Positions 1 through 20,584 of a stretch of 28,015 bases of DNA are shown in pieces (within the stretch, counting starts at the first letter, position 1; every line of letters starts with the position of its first letter). The position numbers and the translations under genes were made by a program. The notes beneath the pieces are model-generated. The model did not search any database and was not told where the DNA came from. It saw nothing but the letters and a program-made list of their open reading frames with translations. This stretch comes from a virus. The stretch spans positions 1-28,015 of IMG/VR virus record IMGVR_UViG_3300030333_000412; one strand, given 5' to 3'.

Positions 1-68
1 AACTAGTATTAATAACAGTGATTGGTGCTTACTTCGGTGGTAGATCACTAGAAAAAGTAAAAAAATAA
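1..68 (+). CDS. C-terminal fragment of a small membrane protein, possibly a holin
   Basis: The frame is open from the window edge (first full codon at 3) to a TAA at 66-68, giving 21 residues: LVLITVIGAYFGGRSLEKVKK. A hydrophobic stretch ends in a glycine pair and a short Lys-rich tail. This is what the last transmembrane helix and cytoplasmic tail of a small phage holin or other membrane protein looks like. The next gene starts 5 bases after the stop, so it belongs to the same transcription unit. The fragment is too short for a family call; holin is an inference from the tail and the phage context. Confidence 0.5.
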   Translation, partial: LVLITVIGAYFGGRSLEKVKK

Positions 69-73
69 AAATT

Positions 74-859
74 ATGAGATATTTTACAACAACGGTGATT
101 CCAGACGTTATAAACGGAGACGTGTCAACTGTAATACAATCTGGCAAGACAGATTTAGCAATGGGAAACAACGATATATTATTTGACTGGACATCTTTTG
201 ATATTCCAAAAGGTGCTGCTAGAGTAGAAAGTATTTCACTTTATATTATGGGTGAAGATGGTGGCATACAAAATTACGCTGATATATCATTAATATTTGC
301 TAAATCAGAAAACGGAGAAGCTCCTTCTAGTTTAGGAAATGTTAACGCGGCACAAACAGCCGGTTTTGACATGCCAACACACTTTATAGGCGCTACAAAG
401 TTAGAGGGAAGTGGCGTTGGAATAGGTGTTTTAGGTGGCCCTTCGTTTGGAAACATTTATGTATCAAACAGCACAAACGGTAATGGACACGTTAATACTG
501 GATTAATTTTAGAAGGAGAACCTAATTCAGGTGCTAACGTTGGTTATGACACTATATATGTAGCAGGTATGTGCGGAAGTCCTAACATAGATTTTTCAAC
601 AGGAGTTTTAGCTGATGGTGCCGTGACAAGTGATTCTGCTACAAGTATAACAACTAAAACAGTAGACCCTAGAAAATGCTTTCAAATAGGTGATACTGTT
701 TATTTACATGACGTAGATACAGCATTAGGTACTGTTGCTTCTATGACAGCGACAAATATAACATTAAATGCTGCTATAGCTGGAGGTACAGATATAGCGG
801 ATGAAGATGAGCTTGTAAACGCTAACCCAATAAGAATGGTTATAGGGTTTTCAAAATAA
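74..859 (+). CDS. beta-rich probable virion protein
   Basis: 261 residues with no signal peptide, membrane segment or catalytic motif. Composition (Gly, Thr, Ser, Asn, Val, Ile, few charged patches) is typical of a beta-sandwich capsid-decoration, tail or fibre protein. Residues about 200-255 form a compact module starting QIGDTVYL, continuing through GTVASMTATNITL, and ending near NPIRMVIGFSK. A similar GDxxY...G-V...N-(I/V)-T pattern appears in the protein at 19665-20075, suggesting a shared small beta-barrel. The start ATG lies 5 bases after the preceding stop in an A-rich leader without Shine-Dalgarno, and no competing upstream start exists. A structural role is inferred from composition and neighbours; a receptor-binding role is possible but unsupported. 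Confidence 0.6.
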   Translation: MRYFTTTVIPDVINGDVSTVIQSGKTDLAMGNNDILFDWTSFDIPKGAARVESISLYIMGEDGGIQNYADISLIFAKSENGEAPSSLGNVNAAQTAGFDMPTHFIGATKLEGSGVGIGVLGGPSFGNIYVSNSTNGNGHVNTGLILEGEPNSGANVGYDTIYVAGMCGSPNIDFSTGVLADGAVTSDSATSITTKTVDPRKCFQIGDTVYLHDVDTALGTVASMTATNITLNAAIAGGTDIADEDELVNANPIRMVIGFSK

Positions 860-886
860 TATAATAATTAACTTAAATTAAATAAA

Positions 887-1150
887 ATGGCAAAAAGAAA
901 AACACCGAAGGTTAAAAAACCTTCAAAAATAAATAATGAAGAATTAAATTCACTACAAGATCTGATAAATAATATCAATAGACATCATTTACAAATCGGG
1001 CAAATAGAATCTCAAAAACATTCTACGTTGCACGGTTTAGCTGGTTTAAACGATGAATTAATCTTAATGAGAGACAAGTTTAAAACTAATTATGGTACTG
1101 ATGATATTAATATATCGGATGGAACAATTAACTACAATGAAACTAATTAG
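887..1150 (+). CDS. small conserved phage protein with coiled-coil
   Basis: 87 residues. The N-terminus is very basic (MAKRKTPKVKKPSK). Residues about 15-66 have heptad-like spacing of Leu/Ile (LNSLQDLINNINRHHLQIGQIE, then LHGLAGLNDELILMRDKF), predicting a helical hairpin or coiled-coil. An acidic tail contains DDINISDGTINY. From memory, similar small proteins occur in marine Bacteroidota phages, with no established function. It might be an adaptor or nucleic-acid-associated protein, given the basic head and helical body, but this is speculation. It ends in TAG and overlaps the next start (1137) by 14 bases. Confidence 0.65.
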   Translation: MAKRKTPKVKKPSKINNEELNSLQDLINNINRHHLQIGQIESQKHSTLHGLAGLNDELILMRDKFKTNYGTDDINISDGTINYNETN

Positions 1151-1355
1151 AAAAATTACAGTAGGAAAAGATTATAAAAACGATGCTATGCATTATGCTG
1201 TTGGTCAAGAGGTTTATGGTGGACATAAAATTTGCGATATAATAGAAGAAGATGATAAGTTTTCTATCTACATCAAAAAGAATAAAGATGTTTTACCTTG
1301 GAAAGACTTTAACAAGAACATGGCTATTTCTGTAGAATATAACTTAGAATACTAA
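1137..1355 (+). CDS. small conserved hypothetical protein
   Basis: 72 residues starting MKLIRKITVGKDYKNDAMHY. A longer reading begins at 1092, but its extra 15 residues (MVLMILIYRMEQLTT) lie entirely inside the preceding gene and look like an out-of-frame shadow. The ATG at 1137 gives a charged N-terminus typical of a compact soluble alpha/beta protein. The middle (VGQEVYGGHKICDIIEEDDKFSIYI) alternates in a beta-hairpin fashion. No catalytic residues or known domain are recognised. It overlaps the upstream gene by 14 bases. Its stop shares a base with the next start in a TAATG junction at 1353-1357, suggesting translational coupling to the GroES-like gene. Confidence 0.6.
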   Translation: MKLIRKITVGKDYKNDAMHYAVGQEVYGGHKICDIIEEDDKFSIYIKKNKDVLPWKDFNKNMAISVEYNLEY

Positions 1356-1945
1356 TGAAAGCACCTTTTGATTTTGTTATAGAGCCAAAAGGAAACAGAT
1401 ATAACAACACGACTAAAGTTGGAGACAAAGATCTTATATTAAATACTGAGATTTTTAACCATCAGTTTGTAAACAGAGAAGCTATTGTTAAATCTATTCC
1501 AACAGCTTTTGAAACAGATATAAAACCTGGAGATACAATTATAACACACCACAATGTTTTTAGACGTTGGCACGATGTAAAGGGTAGAGAAAGAAACAGT
1601 AGAAGTTTTTTTAACGAAAATACTTATTTAGTAAAAGAAGATCAAATATTTTTATATAAAAGAAACGAAGAGTGGAGAGCTCCTAAGGGTTATTGTTTTG
1701 TACAGCCTATAAAAGAAAGGAATTCACTTGGAGTAGATAAAGAAGAATCTTGTATAGGTATAATTAAATATACAGATGGAACGTATGAAAAAGAAGACTT
1801 GGTAGGTTTTATGCCTTTTTCTACATATGAATTTATAATCGATGGTAAAAGATTATATAGAGTTATCACTAAATTTATTACAATTAAATATGAATATCAA
1901 GGAAACGAAGAAGAATATAATCCAAGCTGGGCAGAAAGCTGTTGA
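1355..1945 (+). CDS. tandem GroES-like (co-chaperonin fold) protein
   Basis: 196 residues, about twice the usual 95-100 of GroES. The first module (about 5-101) follows the GroES plan: an initial strand (FDFVIEPKG), then EAIVKSIPT...IKPGDTIITHHNVFR, which parallels the G-V-V-A-V-G...K-V-G-D-x-V-L core. It closes with YLVKEDQIFLY, parallel to the final LxxxEDILA strand. The second module (about 110-180) repeats this: KGYCFVQPI, IGIIKY, EDLVGFMPFSTYEFIIDGKRLYRVITKFITIKY. This is a fold-level resemblance read by eye, not a database match. If right, it would cap host GroEL to fold phage head proteins, as T4 gp31 does. The gene sits just before the terminase genes, and its last 56 bases overlap the next gene. 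Confidence 0.5.
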   Translation: MKAPFDFVIEPKGNRYNNTTKVGDKDLILNTEIFNHQFVNREAIVKSIPTAFETDIKPGDTIITHHNVFRRWHDVKGRERNSRSFFNENTYLVKEDQIFLYKRNEEWRAPKGYCFVQPIKERNSLGVDKEESCIGIIKYTDGTYEKEDLVGFMPFSTYEFIIDGKRLYRVITKFITIKYEYQGNEEEYNPSWAESC

Positions 1946-2165
1946 TGAGTTGATAAAAGTAGCAAAAGAACCGATTGTAGATTCAGACGATGATATATCA
2001 GCAGATAGATTAAAAAATGCCGCAGCTACTAAAAAATTAGCTATATTTGACGCATTTGAAATACTTAACAGAATCCAAGAAGAAGAAATTTTACTTGAAG
2101 GAAAAACACCTGAAAAGACAGAGGAAAAAATCTTTAAAGGATTCGCAGAAGGTAGATCTAAGTAA
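1890..2165 (+). CDS. candidate small terminase subunit
   Basis: 91 residues, largely helical and acidic (MNIKETKKNIIQAGQKAVDEL ... DRLKNAAATKKLAIFDAFEIL ... EKIFKGFAEGRSK when read in pieces). It sits directly before the large terminase with a TAATG stop/start overlap at 2163-2167, the usual place of TerS, and its length and helical character fit. The central DRLKNAAATKKLAIFDAFEIL segment looks like the oligomerising core. I chose ATG 1890 over ATG 1842, because the longer form adds only residues lying deep inside the upstream gene. Even so, the gene overlaps its neighbour by 56 bases. No clear helix-turn-helix is visible, so the call rests mainly on position. Confidence 0.6.
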   Translation: MNIKETKKNIIQAGQKAVDELIKVAKEPIVDSDDDISADRLKNAAATKKLAIFDAFEILNRIQEEEILLEGKTPEKTEEKIFKGFAEGRSK

Positions 2166-4381
2166 TGTACAAGCAAAGTTTAGTTAAGGTTGTAGAGCCT
2201 ATAAAGAAAACCACGATCACCAGAATGAATCGTGGTAAAAAATGGAAGTATGGGTACAACAAAGAGCACGATGTGATTGTATTGTCTAAGAGTGGTCAAA
2301 TAGGAGAAATTATAGAAATACAAAATTTAGTTATAGCTCTACCTAAAGCTCCAAAACAAATATATAAGCACCCAAAAAGTAAATGGGTTAAACTTGATCA
2401 ACCTCAAGAATTGTCTAGATTAAAAAATATTTTTGACTGGAGAAATTATCCTGAAGAAAATAAAGACAAGTGGTATGATTATATAGATGAAGAATTTAGA
2501 AGAAGAGAAGATGGGTTTTGGTTTGAAAATAAAGGAAAACCAACTTGGATAACCGGTACACATTATATGTATCTTCAATGGAGTAAAATTGATGTAGGCG
2601 CTCCAGATTATAGAGAAGCTAATAGATTATTTTATATATTTTGGGAGGCGTGTAAAGCTGATAAAAGATGTTATGGCATGTGTTACCTTAAAAACCGTAG
2701 ATCTGGATTTTCTTTCATGTCATCAGCAGAAACAGTTAATTTAGCTACATTAGCAAGTGATGCTAGATATGGTATACTATCTAAAACTGGTAACGATGCG
2801 AAGAAAATGTTTACTGATAAAGTTGTTCCTATATCGATTAACTATCCGTTCTTTTTTAAACCTATACAAGATGGAATGGATCGTCCAAAATCCGAGTTGG
2901 CTTATCGTGTTCCCGCTTCTAAATTTACGAGAAAGAAAATGTCGGCGACAGACGGCATGGAAGATATTCAAGGGTTAGATACTACTATTGACTGGAGAAA
3001 TACTGGAGACAATAGTTACGACGGGGAAAAATTAAATTTACTAGTTCATGACGAAAGTGGTAAATGGGAGAGACCTGATAATATATTAAACAACTGGCGA
3101 GTTACCAAAACATGTTTACGATTAGGTAGTAGGATAGTTGGTAAATGTATGATGGGCTCAACATCAAACGCATTAGATAAAGGTGGAGACAATTTTAAAA
3201 AACTATATAACTCATCAGATGTCACGCAGCGAAATAGAAATGGCCAAACAAAGTCTGGTTTATATTCTTTGTTTATCCCAATGGAATGGAACTACGAAGG
3301 ATTTATTGATGAGTACGGATATCCAGTATTCAATAATCCAGATAATGATGTACTCGGACCAGATGGAGAACTAATAGATTATGGAATTATAGAACACTGG
3401 GATAACGAAGCAGAAGGTTTAAAAGACGATCATGACGCTTTAAATGAGTTTTATAGACAGTTTCCTAGAACTACAGAGCACGCATTTAGAGACGAGACTA
3501 GAAATAGTATATTTAATCTAGTAAGAATATACGATCAGATAGATTATAATGAAGAAATGAATAGATCGCTAGGTGTAAATACTGGTAATTTTCAATGGGT
3601 TAATGGAGTAAAAGATACACAAGTAATATTTTACCCAGATACAAAAGGTAGGTTTAAAGTTAGTTGGATACCACCTACTAATTTACAAAATAAGATTATA
3701 CTAAAGAATGGCATTAAATATCCCGCTAACGAACATATAGGCGCTTTTGGATGTGATAGTTATGATATATCAGGAACAGTAGATGGAAGAGGTTCTAATG
3801 GCGCTTTACATGGTCTTACTAAATTTAGCATGGAAGAAGCACCTGCTAATCAATTCTTTTTAGAATATATAGCTAGACCACAAACAGCTGAAATGTTTTT
3901 TGAAGACGTGTTAATGGCTTTAGTTTTTTATAGTATGCCAATGTTAGCTGAAAATAACAAACCTAGATTGTTATACTATCTAAGAAGAAGAGGTTATAGA
4001 GGTTTTAGTATGAATCGTCCTGATAGAACATGGAACAAACTATCAGTTGCAGAGAAAGAAGTTGGAGGTATACCAAATTCAAGTGAAGACATAAAACAGG
4101 CTCATGCGGCAGCTATAGAAATGTATATACAACAATATGTTGGAGACATAGGAGATGGAAATTATGGTAATTTATATTTCAATAGGACATTAAATGACTG
4201 GGCGAAGTTTGATATAACTAAAAGAACAAAATTTGATGCTTCTATTAGTTCTGGTTTAGCAATTATGGCTTGTAATAGAAATTTATACAGACCTAACGCT
4301 TTGGTTGAAAAACAGAAAATAAATTTAAACGTAGGTAGATACTCTAATAAGGGTTTTACATCAAGATTAATTAAAGAATAA
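2165..4381 (+). CDS. terL: large terminase subunit (packaging ATPase-nuclease)
   Basis: 738 residues. The protein drives DNA into the prohead and cuts the concatemer. The ATPase half shows a Walker B with catalytic glutamate, LLVHDE (292-297), and a coupling motif GSTSN (331-335). The Walker A position holds NRRSGFS (177-183), which lacks the canonical lysine before the Ser. The C-terminal RNase H-like nuclease starts at IGAFGCDSYD (candidate metal ligand Asp531) followed by GRGSNGAL. Further candidate acids are Glu596 (MLAENN) and Asp691 (TKFDASISSGLAI). Arrangement and length match phage TerL. It is preceded by candidate TerS with a one-base overlap and followed by the portal one base after its stop, so the three are probably co-translated. 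Confidence 0.93.
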   Translation: MYKQSLVKVVEPIKKTTITRMNRGKKWKYGYNKEHDVIVLSKSGQIGEIIEIQNLVIALPKAPKQIYKHPKSKWVKLDQPQELSRLKNIFDWRNYPEENKDKWYDYIDEEFRRREDGFWFENKGKPTWITGTHYMYLQWSKIDVGAPDYREANRLFYIFWEACKADKRCYGMCYLKNRRSGFSFMSSAETVNLATLASDARYGILSKTGNDAKKMFTDKVVPISINYPFFFKPIQDGMDRPKSELAYRVPASKFTRKKMSATDGMEDIQGLDTTIDWRNTGDNSYDGEKLNLLVHDESGKWERPDNILNNWRVTKTCLRLGSRIVGKCMMGSTSNALDKGGDNFKKLYNSSDVTQRNRNGQTKSGLYSLFIPMEWNYEGFIDEYGYPVFNNPDNDVLGPDGELIDYGIIEHWDNEAEGLKDDHDALNEFYRQFPRTTEHAFRDETRNSIFNLVRIYDQIDYNEEMNRSLGVNTGNFQWVNGVKDTQVIFYPDTKGRFKVSWIPPTNLQNKIILKNGIKYPANEHIGAFGCDSYDISGTVDGRGSNGALHGLTKFSMEEAPANQFFLEYIARPQTAEMFFEDVLMALVFYSMPMLAENNKPRLLYYLRRRGYRGFSMNRPDRTWNKLSVAEKEVGGIPNSSEDIKQAHAAAIEMYIQQYVGDIGDGNYGNLYFNRTLNDWAKFDITKRTKFDASISSGLAIMACNRNLYRPNALVEKQKINLNVGRYSNKGFTSRLIKE

Positions 4382-4382
4382 T

Positions 4383-6791
4383 ATGAGGAGAAACGTAAAT
4401 TTTCCAAGTCAAGTAGTTAGTGACAAAGAAAAACTTAGCAAAGAATATGGTTTAAAAATTGCTCGAGCTATAGAGGGTGAATGGTTTCGCGATTCTGGAT
4501 CTAATAATAATAGATACTTAACAGATACTAATAACTTTCATAAACTACGTTTATATGCTAGAGGAGAGCAGAGCATACAAAAATATAAAGATGAATTATC
4601 TATAAATGGAGATTTATCGTATCTAAACTTAGATTGGAAACCCGTTCCAATTATACCTAAGTTTGTAGATATAGTTGTTAATGGAATGACAGAAAGACTG
4701 TTTAATGTCAAAGCTTATTCACAAGATCCATTTGGCGTAGAGAAAAGAACAAAATACATGGAGTCTATACAGAAAGACATGGACACAGCTGAGTTTAACG
4801 ATATGGCTCAGAGTCTTATGAACATGGATCTTTACGAGAACAACAAGGAAGATATACCTGAAAACGAAGATGAACTAGCCTTGCACATGCAGTTAAATTA
4901 TAAGCAAGCTGTAGAAATAGCAGAAGAACAAGCTATAGACGTTTTGTTACAGGGTAATAAATACGATTTAATAAAGAAGAGAATATATTACGATTTAACT
5001 GTATTAGGTATAGCTGCTGCTAAAACTTCTTTTAATAAATCAGAAGGTGTAACTATAGATTATGTTGATCCAGCAAATTTAGTATACTCTTATACTGACT
5101 CTCCTTACTTTGATGATATTTATTACGTGGGAGAGATAAAAGAAATTCCTATTAACGAGCTAGTAAAACAATTTCCAGATTTAACTGATTCTGATTTAGA
5201 AGATATAGATAAAAATAATTTTAAAGGAGCTAGAAGTGTTGGTAGACATTTTAGCAGTGATAGTAACGATAAAAATAAAGTTCAAGTTTTATATTTTAAT
5301 TATAAAACTTTTATGAACGAGGTTTATAAAGTTAAAGAAACAGGTACGGGCGGAGAAAAAGCTATAGAAAAAGACGATTCGTTTAATCCACCAGAAAACA
5401 AAGAAGGAGGTTTTGGAAAATTAGATAGAAAAGTAGAATGCTTGTTTGATGGCGCTTTATTATTAGGAACAGATAGATTGCTTAAATGGGAAAAAGCTAA
5501 AAATATGATGCGTCCTAAAAGTGATTTTACTAAAGTTAAAATGAACTATTCTATTGTAGCGCCTAGAATGTACAACGGAAAAATTGAATCTTTAGTTAGC
5601 AGAATAACAGGTTTTGCTGATATGATTCAATTGACTCATCTAAAACTACAACAAGTAATGTCTAGATTAACTCCAGATGGTATTTATTTAGATGCTGATG
5701 GATTAGCTGAAATTGATTTAGGCAATGGTACTAATTACAACCCACAAGAAGCTTTAAATATGTTTTTCCAAACTGGTAGTATAATTGGTAGAAGTTTTAC
5801 TGCTGATGGCGATCCTAATCCAGGTAAAATGCCTATACAAGAAATACAATCAGGAGGAGGCGCTAAAATGCAAAGTTTAATAGGTACTTATAACTATTAC
5901 TTGCAAATGATTAGAGATACTACCGGACTAAACGAAGCTAGGGATGCTGCCACTCCTGATGAACGAGCTTTAGTTGGTGTACAAAAAATGGCAGCAGCTA
6001 ATTCCAACACCGCTACGAGACATATACTTAATGCGGGTTTATTTGTGTCAGCAGAAATATGTGAATCGTTATCTCTTAGAATATCTGATATTATAGAGTA
6101 TTCTCCAACAAAAGATGCTTTTATACAGTCTATAGGAGCTCACAATGTAGCAACTTTAGAAGAAATGTCACAATTACATCTATACGATTTTGGAATATTT
6201 TTAGATTTAGAACCAGACGAAGAACAACAACAAATTTTAGAACAAAATATACAAGCAGCATTAGCTCAACAAACTATAGACTTAGAAGACGCTATTGATC
6301 TTAGAGAAATTAAAAACGTTAAACTTGCTAATCAACTTTTAAAACTTAGAAGAAAAAAGAAACAGCAAAAAGATCAACAAATACAACAAGAAAACATGAA
6401 GGCTCAAGCAGAAGCTAATGCTCAACAACAACAAGCCGCGGCTCAAGCTGAAATGCAAAAGCAACAAGCTTTAGTTCAAAGCGAAGTACAAATAGAGCAA
6501 GTTAAAGCAAAAATGAAACAACAGACTTTACAAGTTGAAGCTGACGTAAAGAGACAATTGATGGATCATGAGTTTGAAATAAACATGAAGTTAAAAAGAA
6601 TGGATATTGACAACGAAAGATCAAGAGATGAAAATAGAGAAAATAGACAAGATAGAAGAACTGTAATAAGTGGAGAGCAGCAAAAGCAATTAATGAAAGA
6701 AAGAGAACAAATAAAAGAAAAACCATTTGAATCTGCTGGTAACGATGTTGTTGGTGGAGGAATGAGGTTAGGTGCGTTTGAACCTAAATAA
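4383..6791 (+). CDS. portal protein
   Basis: 802 residues, at the long end for portals. It forms the dodecameric ring through which DNA enters and leaves the head. The N-terminal half is mixed alpha/beta, with WKPVPIIPKFVDIVVNGM (about 85-102) and VTIDYVDPANLVYSYTDSPYF (about 223-243 in pieces), typical of portal clip/wing regions. The segment YNYYLQMIRDTTGLNEARD (about 503-521), followed by a long helix, is a portal hallmark of this type. Residues about 612-780 are a Gln/Lys/Glu-rich coiled-coil, comparable to the helical barrel of P22-like portals. The call rests on position between TerL and the scaffold/capsid pair plus these features. The C-terminus turns Gly-rich and ends GAFEPK. Confidence 0.88.
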   Translation: MRRNVNFPSQVVSDKEKLSKEYGLKIARAIEGEWFRDSGSNNNRYLTDTNNFHKLRLYARGEQSIQKYKDELSINGDLSYLNLDWKPVPIIPKFVDIVVNGMTERLFNVKAYSQDPFGVEKRTKYMESIQKDMDTAEFNDMAQSLMNMDLYENNKEDIPENEDELALHMQLNYKQAVEIAEEQAIDVLLQGNKYDLIKKRIYYDLTVLGIAAAKTSFNKSEGVTIDYVDPANLVYSYTDSPYFDDIYYVGEIKEIPINELVKQFPDLTDSDLEDIDKNNFKGARSVGRHFSSDSNDKNKVQVLYFNYKTFMNEVYKVKETGTGGEKAIEKDDSFNPPENKEGGFGKLDRKVECLFDGALLLGTDRLLKWEKAKNMMRPKSDFTKVKMNYSIVAPRMYNGKIESLVSRITGFADMIQLTHLKLQQVMSRLTPDGIYLDADGLAEIDLGNGTNYNPQEALNMFFQTGSIIGRSFTADGDPNPGKMPIQEIQSGGGAKMQSLIGTYNYYLQMIRDTTGLNEARDAATPDERALVGVQKMAAANSNTATRHILNAGLFVSAEICESLSLRISDIIEYSPTKDAFIQSIGAHNVATLEEMSQLHLYDFGIFLDLEPDEEQQQILEQNIQAALAQQTIDLEDAIDLREIKNVKLANQLLKLRRKKKQQKDQQIQQENMKAQAEANAQQQQAAAQAEMQKQQALVQSEVQIEQVKAKMKQQTLQVEADVKRQLMDHEFEINMKLKRMDIDNERSRDENRENRQDRRTVISGEQQKQLMKEREQIKEKPFESAGNDVVGGGMRLGAFEPK

Positions 6792-20119: not shown

Positions 20120-20584
20120 ATGAAAAAAGAAACAATCCTTAGTAAAAGAAAGGAAATACAGTCTTTACAAGAATTATTAATTAATAACGCTGATGGAGAT
20201 AATATAGAGGGTGATGGTAAAAATATAATTCATAGTAAAAACTTTCCTTTAAAACACACATTTGCAGATGGTATTTACGTAAGACAAATGGATATGAAAG
20301 CTGGTAGTATAGTTGTTGGTGCTATACACAACCATTTGCATGTTTGGTTTTTATTAACTGGTCATTTAGCTGTAGCTACAGAAGATTCAATAGAAGAATT
20401 TGTGGCACCATGTTATGTATTAGCTAAACCAGGTAGTAAAAGAGTAATATATGCAATGGAAGAATCTATATTTGTAAACGTACACAAAAATCCAAACAAT
20501 ATAAAAGATATAAAAAAATTAGAAGACGAAATAGTCTCTTTAACATTTGAAGAATATGAAGAATATATTAACAAAAATAAATAA
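20120..20584 (+). CDS. phage cupin-fold protein
   Basis: 154 residues. A helical N-terminal part (about 1-25) precedes a cupin barrel. Motif 1 is GAIHNHLHVWFLLTG: His70, His72 and His74 lie upstream of Gly81 with spacing like the canonical HxH(x)3-4E(x)6G, but the Glu is missing and a third His sits near its place. Motif 2 is APCYVLAKPGSKRVIYA; PxG-like PG is present (104-105), but the usual His is replaced by Arg/Tyr, and His122 follows (VNVHKN). Cupins of this kind sit among tail genes in many marine phages; substrate and role are unknown. The metal site is atypical, so catalysis is uncertain. It lies 3 bases before the first ejection-protein gene. Confidence 0.72.
   Translation: MKKETILSKRKEIQSLQELLINNADGDNIEGDGKNIIHSKNFPLKHTFADGIYVRQMDMKAGSIVVGAIHNHLHVWFLLTGHLAVATEDSIEEFVAPCYVLAKPGSKRVIYAMEESIFVNVHKNPNNIKDIKKLEDEIVSLTFEEYEEYINKNK

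Follow-up and report, generated by a model that had tools for sequence, protein, structure and literature searches.

The stretch of DNA analysed here (the window) comprises 28,015 nucleotides of the IMG/VR virus record IMGVR_UViG_3300030333_000412. Near its start, the window contains a plus-strand frame that runs uninterrupted from ATG to stop and encodes a protein of 196 aa, referred to here as the tandem protein. A PHROGs profile search matched this protein to phrog_13932, annotated as 'co-chaperonin GroES' (E 6e-17, residues 1-124, profile length 200). A Pfam search with the window protein returned no families, a PF00166 scan of the whole window gave no matches, and PDB sequence searches with the window protein or the A2 profile returned only weak matches to unrelated proteins. 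The coordinates of the gene, its parts and its neighbors are collected in Table 1.

Table 1 Features of the tandem co-chaperonin locus in the window.
Feature	Position	Strand	Basis
Tandem co-chaperonin gene, 196 aa, phrog_13932	1355..1945	+	ORF; profile match; fold model
N-terminal GroES module, residues 1-107	1355..1675	+	half modelled alone; elemo homologue matches phrog_3188 (residues 14-64)
Mobile-loop-like segment of N-module, residues 12-40	1388..1474	+	low pLDDT; conservation
Hydrophobic tripeptide L27-I28-L29, N-module	1433-1441	+	all three hydrophobic in 142/146
H65-H66-N67, N-module	1547..1555	+	invariant in 146-member alignment
C-terminal GroES module, residues 106-181	1670..1897	+	fold match; profile match; PF00166 in homologues
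Trimmed C-module loop, residues 121-129, at GroES mobile-loop site	1715..1741	+	profile gap; span counts
Conserved 72-aa gene, directly 5' of tandem gene	1137..1355	+	stop/ATG overlap; conservation
Conserved 91-aa gene, covers last 56 bases of tandem gene	1890..2165	+	conservation
Terminase large subunit, 738 aa	2165..4381	+	phrog_6681, E 7.6e-167
Portal protein, 802 aa	4383..6791	+	phrog_6547, E 6.7e-142

An earlier reading made from the sequence only had proposed a gene for two GroES modules in tandem, adjoining terminase and capsid genes, and genes for terminase and portal are indeed located 3' of the tandem gene, which is part of the terminase-portal-capsid cluster. On the 5' side, the stop codon of the 72-aa gene and the ATG of the tandem gene share one base (TAATG). 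We found the arrangement with terminase to be strict across relatives. A terminase match was present 3' of the tandem gene in all 225 loci with at least 1.5 kb of downstream sequence, or 213 of 213 distinct contigs after refetched contigs were subtracted, and the distance from the end of the tandem gene to the start of terminase had a median of 235 and was at most 915 bases. In 7 of the close loci, the product of the 72-aa gene showed 81-92% identity, against 44-46% in MW202828, elemo, and Panino; it may be a partner of the tandem protein. For the product of the 91-aa gene, identity was 77-91% in these 7 loci and 54% in MW202828. Elemo, phi38:1, and Panino have no match to the 91-aa protein, and their terminase is 135-138 residues longer at its start. 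This comparison suggested that the 91-aa gene may encode a small terminase component, which would be fused to terminase in these three phages.

Promoter-like and terminator-like sites in positions 1-4500 of the window were close to the level of shuffled sequence (25 against 20.3, sd 4.0, and 2 against 1.6, respectively). Farther downstream, at positions 20120-20584, a 154-aa protein matched the tail-fibre families phrog_12032 (8.3e-26) and phrog_24280 (2.7e-21).

Predicted fold and sequence of the two halves

We predicted the structure of the tandem protein with AF2, using an alignment of 146 sequences that comprised the window protein and 145 relatives. The full-length monomer model had a pLDDT of 83.6 and a pTM of 0.76. 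When this model was compared with the PDB using Foldseek, the sole match below an E value of 0.001 was 7ekq_R (E 3.5e-4), named 'Cpn20 co-chaperonin subunit', followed by 7ekq_Q (E 4.8e-3), named 'Chaperonin 23', and then by Cpn10 and GroES chains. Both of these 7ekq chains are tandem plastid co-chaperonins. VIA-align superposed the full model on 7ekq_Q with Z 9.8 (156 residues, rmsd 4.8, model residues 1-179) and the C-half (residues 106-180) on GroES 8wuc_a with Z 8.8 (74 residues, rmsd 2.3). The N-half, taken from the full model, matched GroES 2c7c_O with Z 7.3 (77 residues, rmsd 4.2); since the tool warns that a Z below 8 may reflect a common arrangement, we also predicted the N-half on its own.

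Modelled alone, the N-half had a pLDDT of 87.7, and the first 15 rows of its structure comparison were all Cpn10, GroES, gp31, or Cpn20 domains (Z 7.9-5.9). Its best Foldseek match was a human mitochondrial chaperonin entry (E 6.7e-3), with none below E 0.001. Structures of gp31 were matched by both halves (N-half with 1g31, Z 7.3; C-half with 2cgt, Z 6.7), and in a viral structure library the best named match of the full model was the 'Chaperonin cpn10' of phage phi18:3 (TM 0.70). By structure comparison, a Cpn10 barrel is predicted for each half, and the reading of the window protein as two GroES (Cpn10) modules, at about residues 1-105 and 106-180, holds in these models. The sequence-only reading had anticipated this fold in both halves and had set the module borders at residues 5-101 and 110-180, which is accurate to within a few residues. 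The xED motif described there as closing each module is clear in the N-half (KEDQIFLY) but not in the C-half.

Other interpretations of these structure matches can be considered. The halves might be only loosely GroES-like, resembling the GroES-like fold of dehydrogenases and being unrelated to co-chaperonins. Dehydrogenase domains do come next in the structure lists, but only from Z 4.8, below the range of the Cpn10 rows, and homologues of the window protein match PF00166 and the ordinary GroES family phrog_3188; we regard this interpretation as very improbable. The protein might also be imagined to cap a different ring machine, ClpP for instance, since the closest solved structure comes from an entry titled CrClpP-S2c, in which Cpn11, Cpn20, and Cpn23 reportedly cap ClpP in Chlamydomonas. 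However, the match concerns the fold of the Cpn20 and Cpn23 chains, and GroEL is present in 38 of the 54 related records described below, so that a role as a ClpP cap is hardly to be expected.

We then compared the sequence of each half with GroES families. PF00166 was matched above its cut-off in the C-half only, by L083 (E 2e-6), L196 (7.2e-6), L197 (4.9e-6), and phi18:3 (8.5e-8), and at E 0.1 or better by 10 of the 146 family members. The C-half profile matched that of 30 cellular GroES proteins (E 9.5e-6, probability 83%) and scored 31.1 against a combined cellular and phage GroES profile, for which the best of 40 column shuffles scored 16.1. Its match to the profile of phage single GroES proteins was weak (score 18.5, probability 5.6%, shuffle maximum 15.2). 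The N-half profile scored 18.1 and 17.2 against the phage single and combined GroES profiles, with maxima of 22.3 and 20.2 among 40 column shuffles. In hhalign, the N-half reached low probabilities of 2.7% with cellular GroES, 3.4% with phage single GroES, and 1.5% with the C-half. The attempt to prove the N-half from its sequence was dropped, as the scores against the phage single and combined profiles lay within the shuffle range although the register of the alignment looks right. Phrog_3188 was matched by the N-half of the elemo homologue (residues 14-64, E 3e-4) and by the C-halves of phi38:1 and phi18:3, and in total by 11 of the 146 aligned members, all 146 of which matched phrog_13932.

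The profiles of the N-half and the C-half showed no detectable resemblance to each other. This makes it unlikely that the tandem gene arose by a recent duplication; an old duplication or a fusion of two GroES genes could equally be its origin.

Distribution of the family and its mobile loops

To collect relatives, we scanned IMG/VR and found at least 598 matching stretches, 595 of which were relatives, which places the two-module design in hundreds of phage contigs. Eighty loci were kept from this first scan, and further scans with the alignment and with divergent members brought in loci up to L277, while a scan with the Panino member as query found no relatives. In the phage collection, 77 records were matched at E 1 or better (68 Flavobacterium, 7 Cellulophaga, 1 Maribacter, and 1 unnamed). 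Three further matches, to Dickeya phages at E 8, were attributed to chance and discarded. Several of the records annotate the protein as 'chaperonin cpn10' or 'co-chaperonin GroES' and others as 'hypothetical protein'. The window protein was 18-39% identical to the divergent members compared. The gene order is shared by a sixth group, that of the Pachyviridae phage phi18:3, in which the tandem gene is gp096, the small gene gp097, the terminase gene gp098, and the portal gene gp099. We also scanned genome contigs for a cellular or prophage home of the family. No match was found with the elemo query, and the window query returned a single fragment of 32 residues, located at the edge of a contig from a Desulfobacteraceae MAG. 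Positions 1-110 of this 3.6-kb contig (L278) are the end of a tandem gene of phrog_13932 phages, and L278 is probably a stray phage contig.

The proteins of elemo, Calle, phi18:3, and Panino that are named 'co-chaperonin GroES' or 'chaperonin Cpn10' belong to the same phrog_13932, have 180-200 aa, and occupy the same place beside terminase; in the records viewed, the annotation as GroES or Cpn10 comes without mention of two modules. A passage of PMC8776804 counts 'Chaperonin cpn10' among the Pervagoviridae core proteins. Two modules are not mentioned in the passages on phi38:1, Pervagoviridae, Panino, or marine Flavobacteriaceae phages (PMC13288928, PMC8776804, PMC11590407, PMC5332604), and we found no report of a two-module phage GroES in the literature searched, mostly without subscription journals.

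The E. coli GroES mobile loop carries the hydrophobic tripeptide IVL, and the N-module of the phage family likewise has a hydrophobic tripeptide in a loop. Residues 12-40 of the window protein form a loop of lower model confidence (block pLDDT 75, 70, and 59 across residues 11-40), within which the tripeptide at residues 27-29 is LIL in 84 of 146 members and entirely hydrophobic in 142. Y16, N18, and R41 of the N-module are invariant in the 146-member alignment. The motif H65-H66-N67, which is a possible metal or ligand site, is also found in 146 of 146 N-modules, but not in phi18:3. In the C-module, the loop spans 15-20 residues in 143 of 146 members and 26-27 residues in the other 3, and the profile alignment places a 7-residue gap in the C-half over GIIIPDT of cellular GroES. 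A GroES-type mobile loop with a hydrophobic tripeptide is absent from the C-module of the window lineage. The longer C-loop is kept in phi18:3, phi38:1, and the phi38:1-like L196, with GroES-like letters in L196. The alignment thus indicates that the window lineage has one mobile loop per two modules, and that only its N-module keeps a loop of the putative GroEL-binding type. The phi18:3-, phi38:1-, and L196-type lineages apparently have two per tandem chain. A candidate for the mobile-loop contact with GroEL that the sequence-only reading had suggested looking for is present in the N-module of the window lineage but not in its C-module.

That reading had also held that GroES is normally a single module, which overlooks plastid Cpn20, described in the passages available as two Cpn10 modules joined head to tail. 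This arrangement is shared by plastid Cpn20, Cpn21, and Cpn23 (Arabidopsis, Chlamydomonas, and the apicoplast), which are the best structural match of the phage protein and are accompanied by Cpn60 and often by a single Cpn10 too. The phage protein differs in being virus-encoded and terminase-linked, in the trimmed C-module loop of the window lineage, and in showing only 9-12% identity to Cpn20 and Cpn23 in structural alignments. Apicomplexan cpn20 is described in a passage of PMC3542282 as keeping the mobile loop in both modules, and we therefore classify the tandem protein as Cpn20-like and not as Cpn20, because only one of its modules has a mobile loop. Transfer from a chloroplast is one conceivable origin, at this low identity, and the phage tandem may instead have arisen independently of plastids. 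The two-module architecture is already known from plastids and the family is already named GroES in phages, and hence the protein is not of a new kind. What is unusual here is that it is phage-encoded, has one loop per pair of modules, is tied to terminase, and has relatives that add a single GroES and mostly GroEL.

Chaperonin genes in related phages and a possible role

We searched for GroEL and single GroES in related records that were chosen by hand, mostly long contigs, from the loci gathered. In a first set of 26 records, 15 had GroEL (PF00118), and in a second set of 28, 23 had it, giving 38 of 54 in total. Among these are 50 IMG/VR records, 34 with GroEL and 16 without, and 15 of the latter have at most 5.9 kb of sequence upstream of the tandem gene. 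L196 (72.8 kb, with 16.3 kb upstream of the tandem gene) is a true exception, and the phi18:3 record (71.4 kb) also has no PF00118 match. The absence of GroEL from these two despite ample sequence indicates that the tandem protein can do without a phage GroEL. Nor did the window match PF00118. In its closest set, the loci of the first scan, the distance from the end of GroEL to the tandem gene downstream of it is 3.0-4.8 kb in all 13 loci that have GroEL; since the window has only 1,354 bases upstream, GroEL may be missing because the window starts too late. A single-domain PF00166 ORF (84-120 aa frame) was found in 24 of 24 records tested and lies within 1 kb of GroEL in all 23 of those that have GroEL. 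The window has no single-domain GroES and begins where both genes would be cut off. We infer that the window phage owns the same trio of tandem protein, single GroES, and GroEL.

Phage single GroES proteins carry mobile loops such as GGLILTD. Ten phage GroELs were 35-41% identical to one cellular GroEL, with the ATP motif GDGTTT in 9 of 10 and GDSTTC in elemo (L086). By eye, hydrophobic positions are kept in what we take to be their helices H and I. A cited passage describes helices H and I of GroEL as the GroES-binding site. Both GroEL and single GroES are annotated in the phi38:1 and elemo records, and both homologues are reported for Panino in the passage available (PMC11590407). Passages of other studies report GroEL homologues in 36 of 78 genomes of a marine Flavobacteriaceae phage group that includes phi38:1 (PMC5332604) and a methylated phi38:1 'Chaperonin GroEL' in proteomic samples of infected cells and virions (PMC13288928).

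According to a published abstract, T4 gp31 consists of one module and acts together with host GroEL. It shares the phage-encoded co-chaperonin fold, whereas here two modules are joined and most records tested contain a phage GroEL. GroEL-type chaperonins are also encoded by the phages EL (gp146) and AR9; the abstracts on them concern the barrel and mention no tandem lid. Capping of host GroEL, as suggested in the sequence-only reading, is unlikely to be the main case, given the phage GroEL and single GroES genes of related records. The protein could also act as a decoy lid that replaces host GroES on host GroEL and redirects or blocks host folding. Phi18:3 and L196, with a tandem and a single GroES and no phage GroEL match, would fit such a decoy, but GroEL is present in the majority of records and all but one of the IMG/VR records without it are short upstream, and we consider a decoy quite improbable.

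Most probably, in our judgement, the tandem protein is a Cpn20-like co-chaperonin that caps the GroEL of the phage itself, either as the whole lid or as one component of it, and that helps late phage proteins to fold or assemble. The rings would probably be mixed and include the single GroES. GroEL binding, ring composition, substrates, and late expression are all points that we infer. The first module would carry the GroEL-binding-type mobile loop and the second would serve mainly to build the ring. Plant and algal Cpn10 and Cpn20 form functional mixed rings of seven modules (a passage of PMC3542282), and by this analogy three tandem chains and one single chain, for example, could make up seven modules. 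The sequence-only reading had raised the possibility of an altered symmetry, but an even number of modules need not alter it, as the single GroES could complete a seven-module ring. The substrates might include portal, capsid, or tail proteins. Relative to the tandem gene, GroEL lies 2.9 to 46.5 kb upstream, except in one contig where it is far downstream, and in elemo it is on the other strand. This variable position, set beside the strict link with terminase, suggests a tandem lid in the service of the morphogenesis genes, and the fixed place beside terminase makes a morphogenesis-linked co-chaperonin plausible.

The same neighborhood could instead mean that a GroES-fold protein was recruited to packaging or virion assembly, where it might, for example, form a small ring or scaffold close to terminase or the portal, and is no longer a lid. 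Besides the terminase adjacency (213/213 distinct contigs), the trimmed C-module loop (143/146) and the small conserved gene directly upstream are in keeping with such recruitment, and the separate ordinary GroES (24/24 records) means that the lid job may already be filled. The strong conservation of the N-module loop and its hydrophobic tripeptide argues against it, as does, weakly, virion mass spectrometry of phi18:3, which marks the portal gp099 and not the tandem gp096. We consider recruitment of this kind unlikely.

A more specific version of the Cpn20-like lid is conceivable, though doubtful: an independent three-part phage chaperonin with a one-loop tandem lid that makes four of seven GroEL contacts and is deliberately weak, asymmetric, and late, for capsid and portal. 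The number follows by simple arithmetic: each of three one-loop tandem chains would contribute one GroEL contact, and so would the one single chain. Four functional GroES subunits are the minimum for GroEL binding according to a passage of a cited report.

With the Cpn20-like tandem co-chaperonin as the preferred reading, the combination of a single GroES, a tandem GroES, and GroEL represents a toolkit otherwise familiar from plant chloroplasts, and its presence suggests that phages of the phrog_13932 group have a folding machine dedicated to their assembly. These phages are also a natural system for asking how an even number of lid modules fits a seven-fold barrel, and lineages with one and with apparently two loops per tandem chain are open to comparison. 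The phi38:1-like L196, with tandem and single GroES and no GroEL match, provides a natural case for the use of host GroEL.
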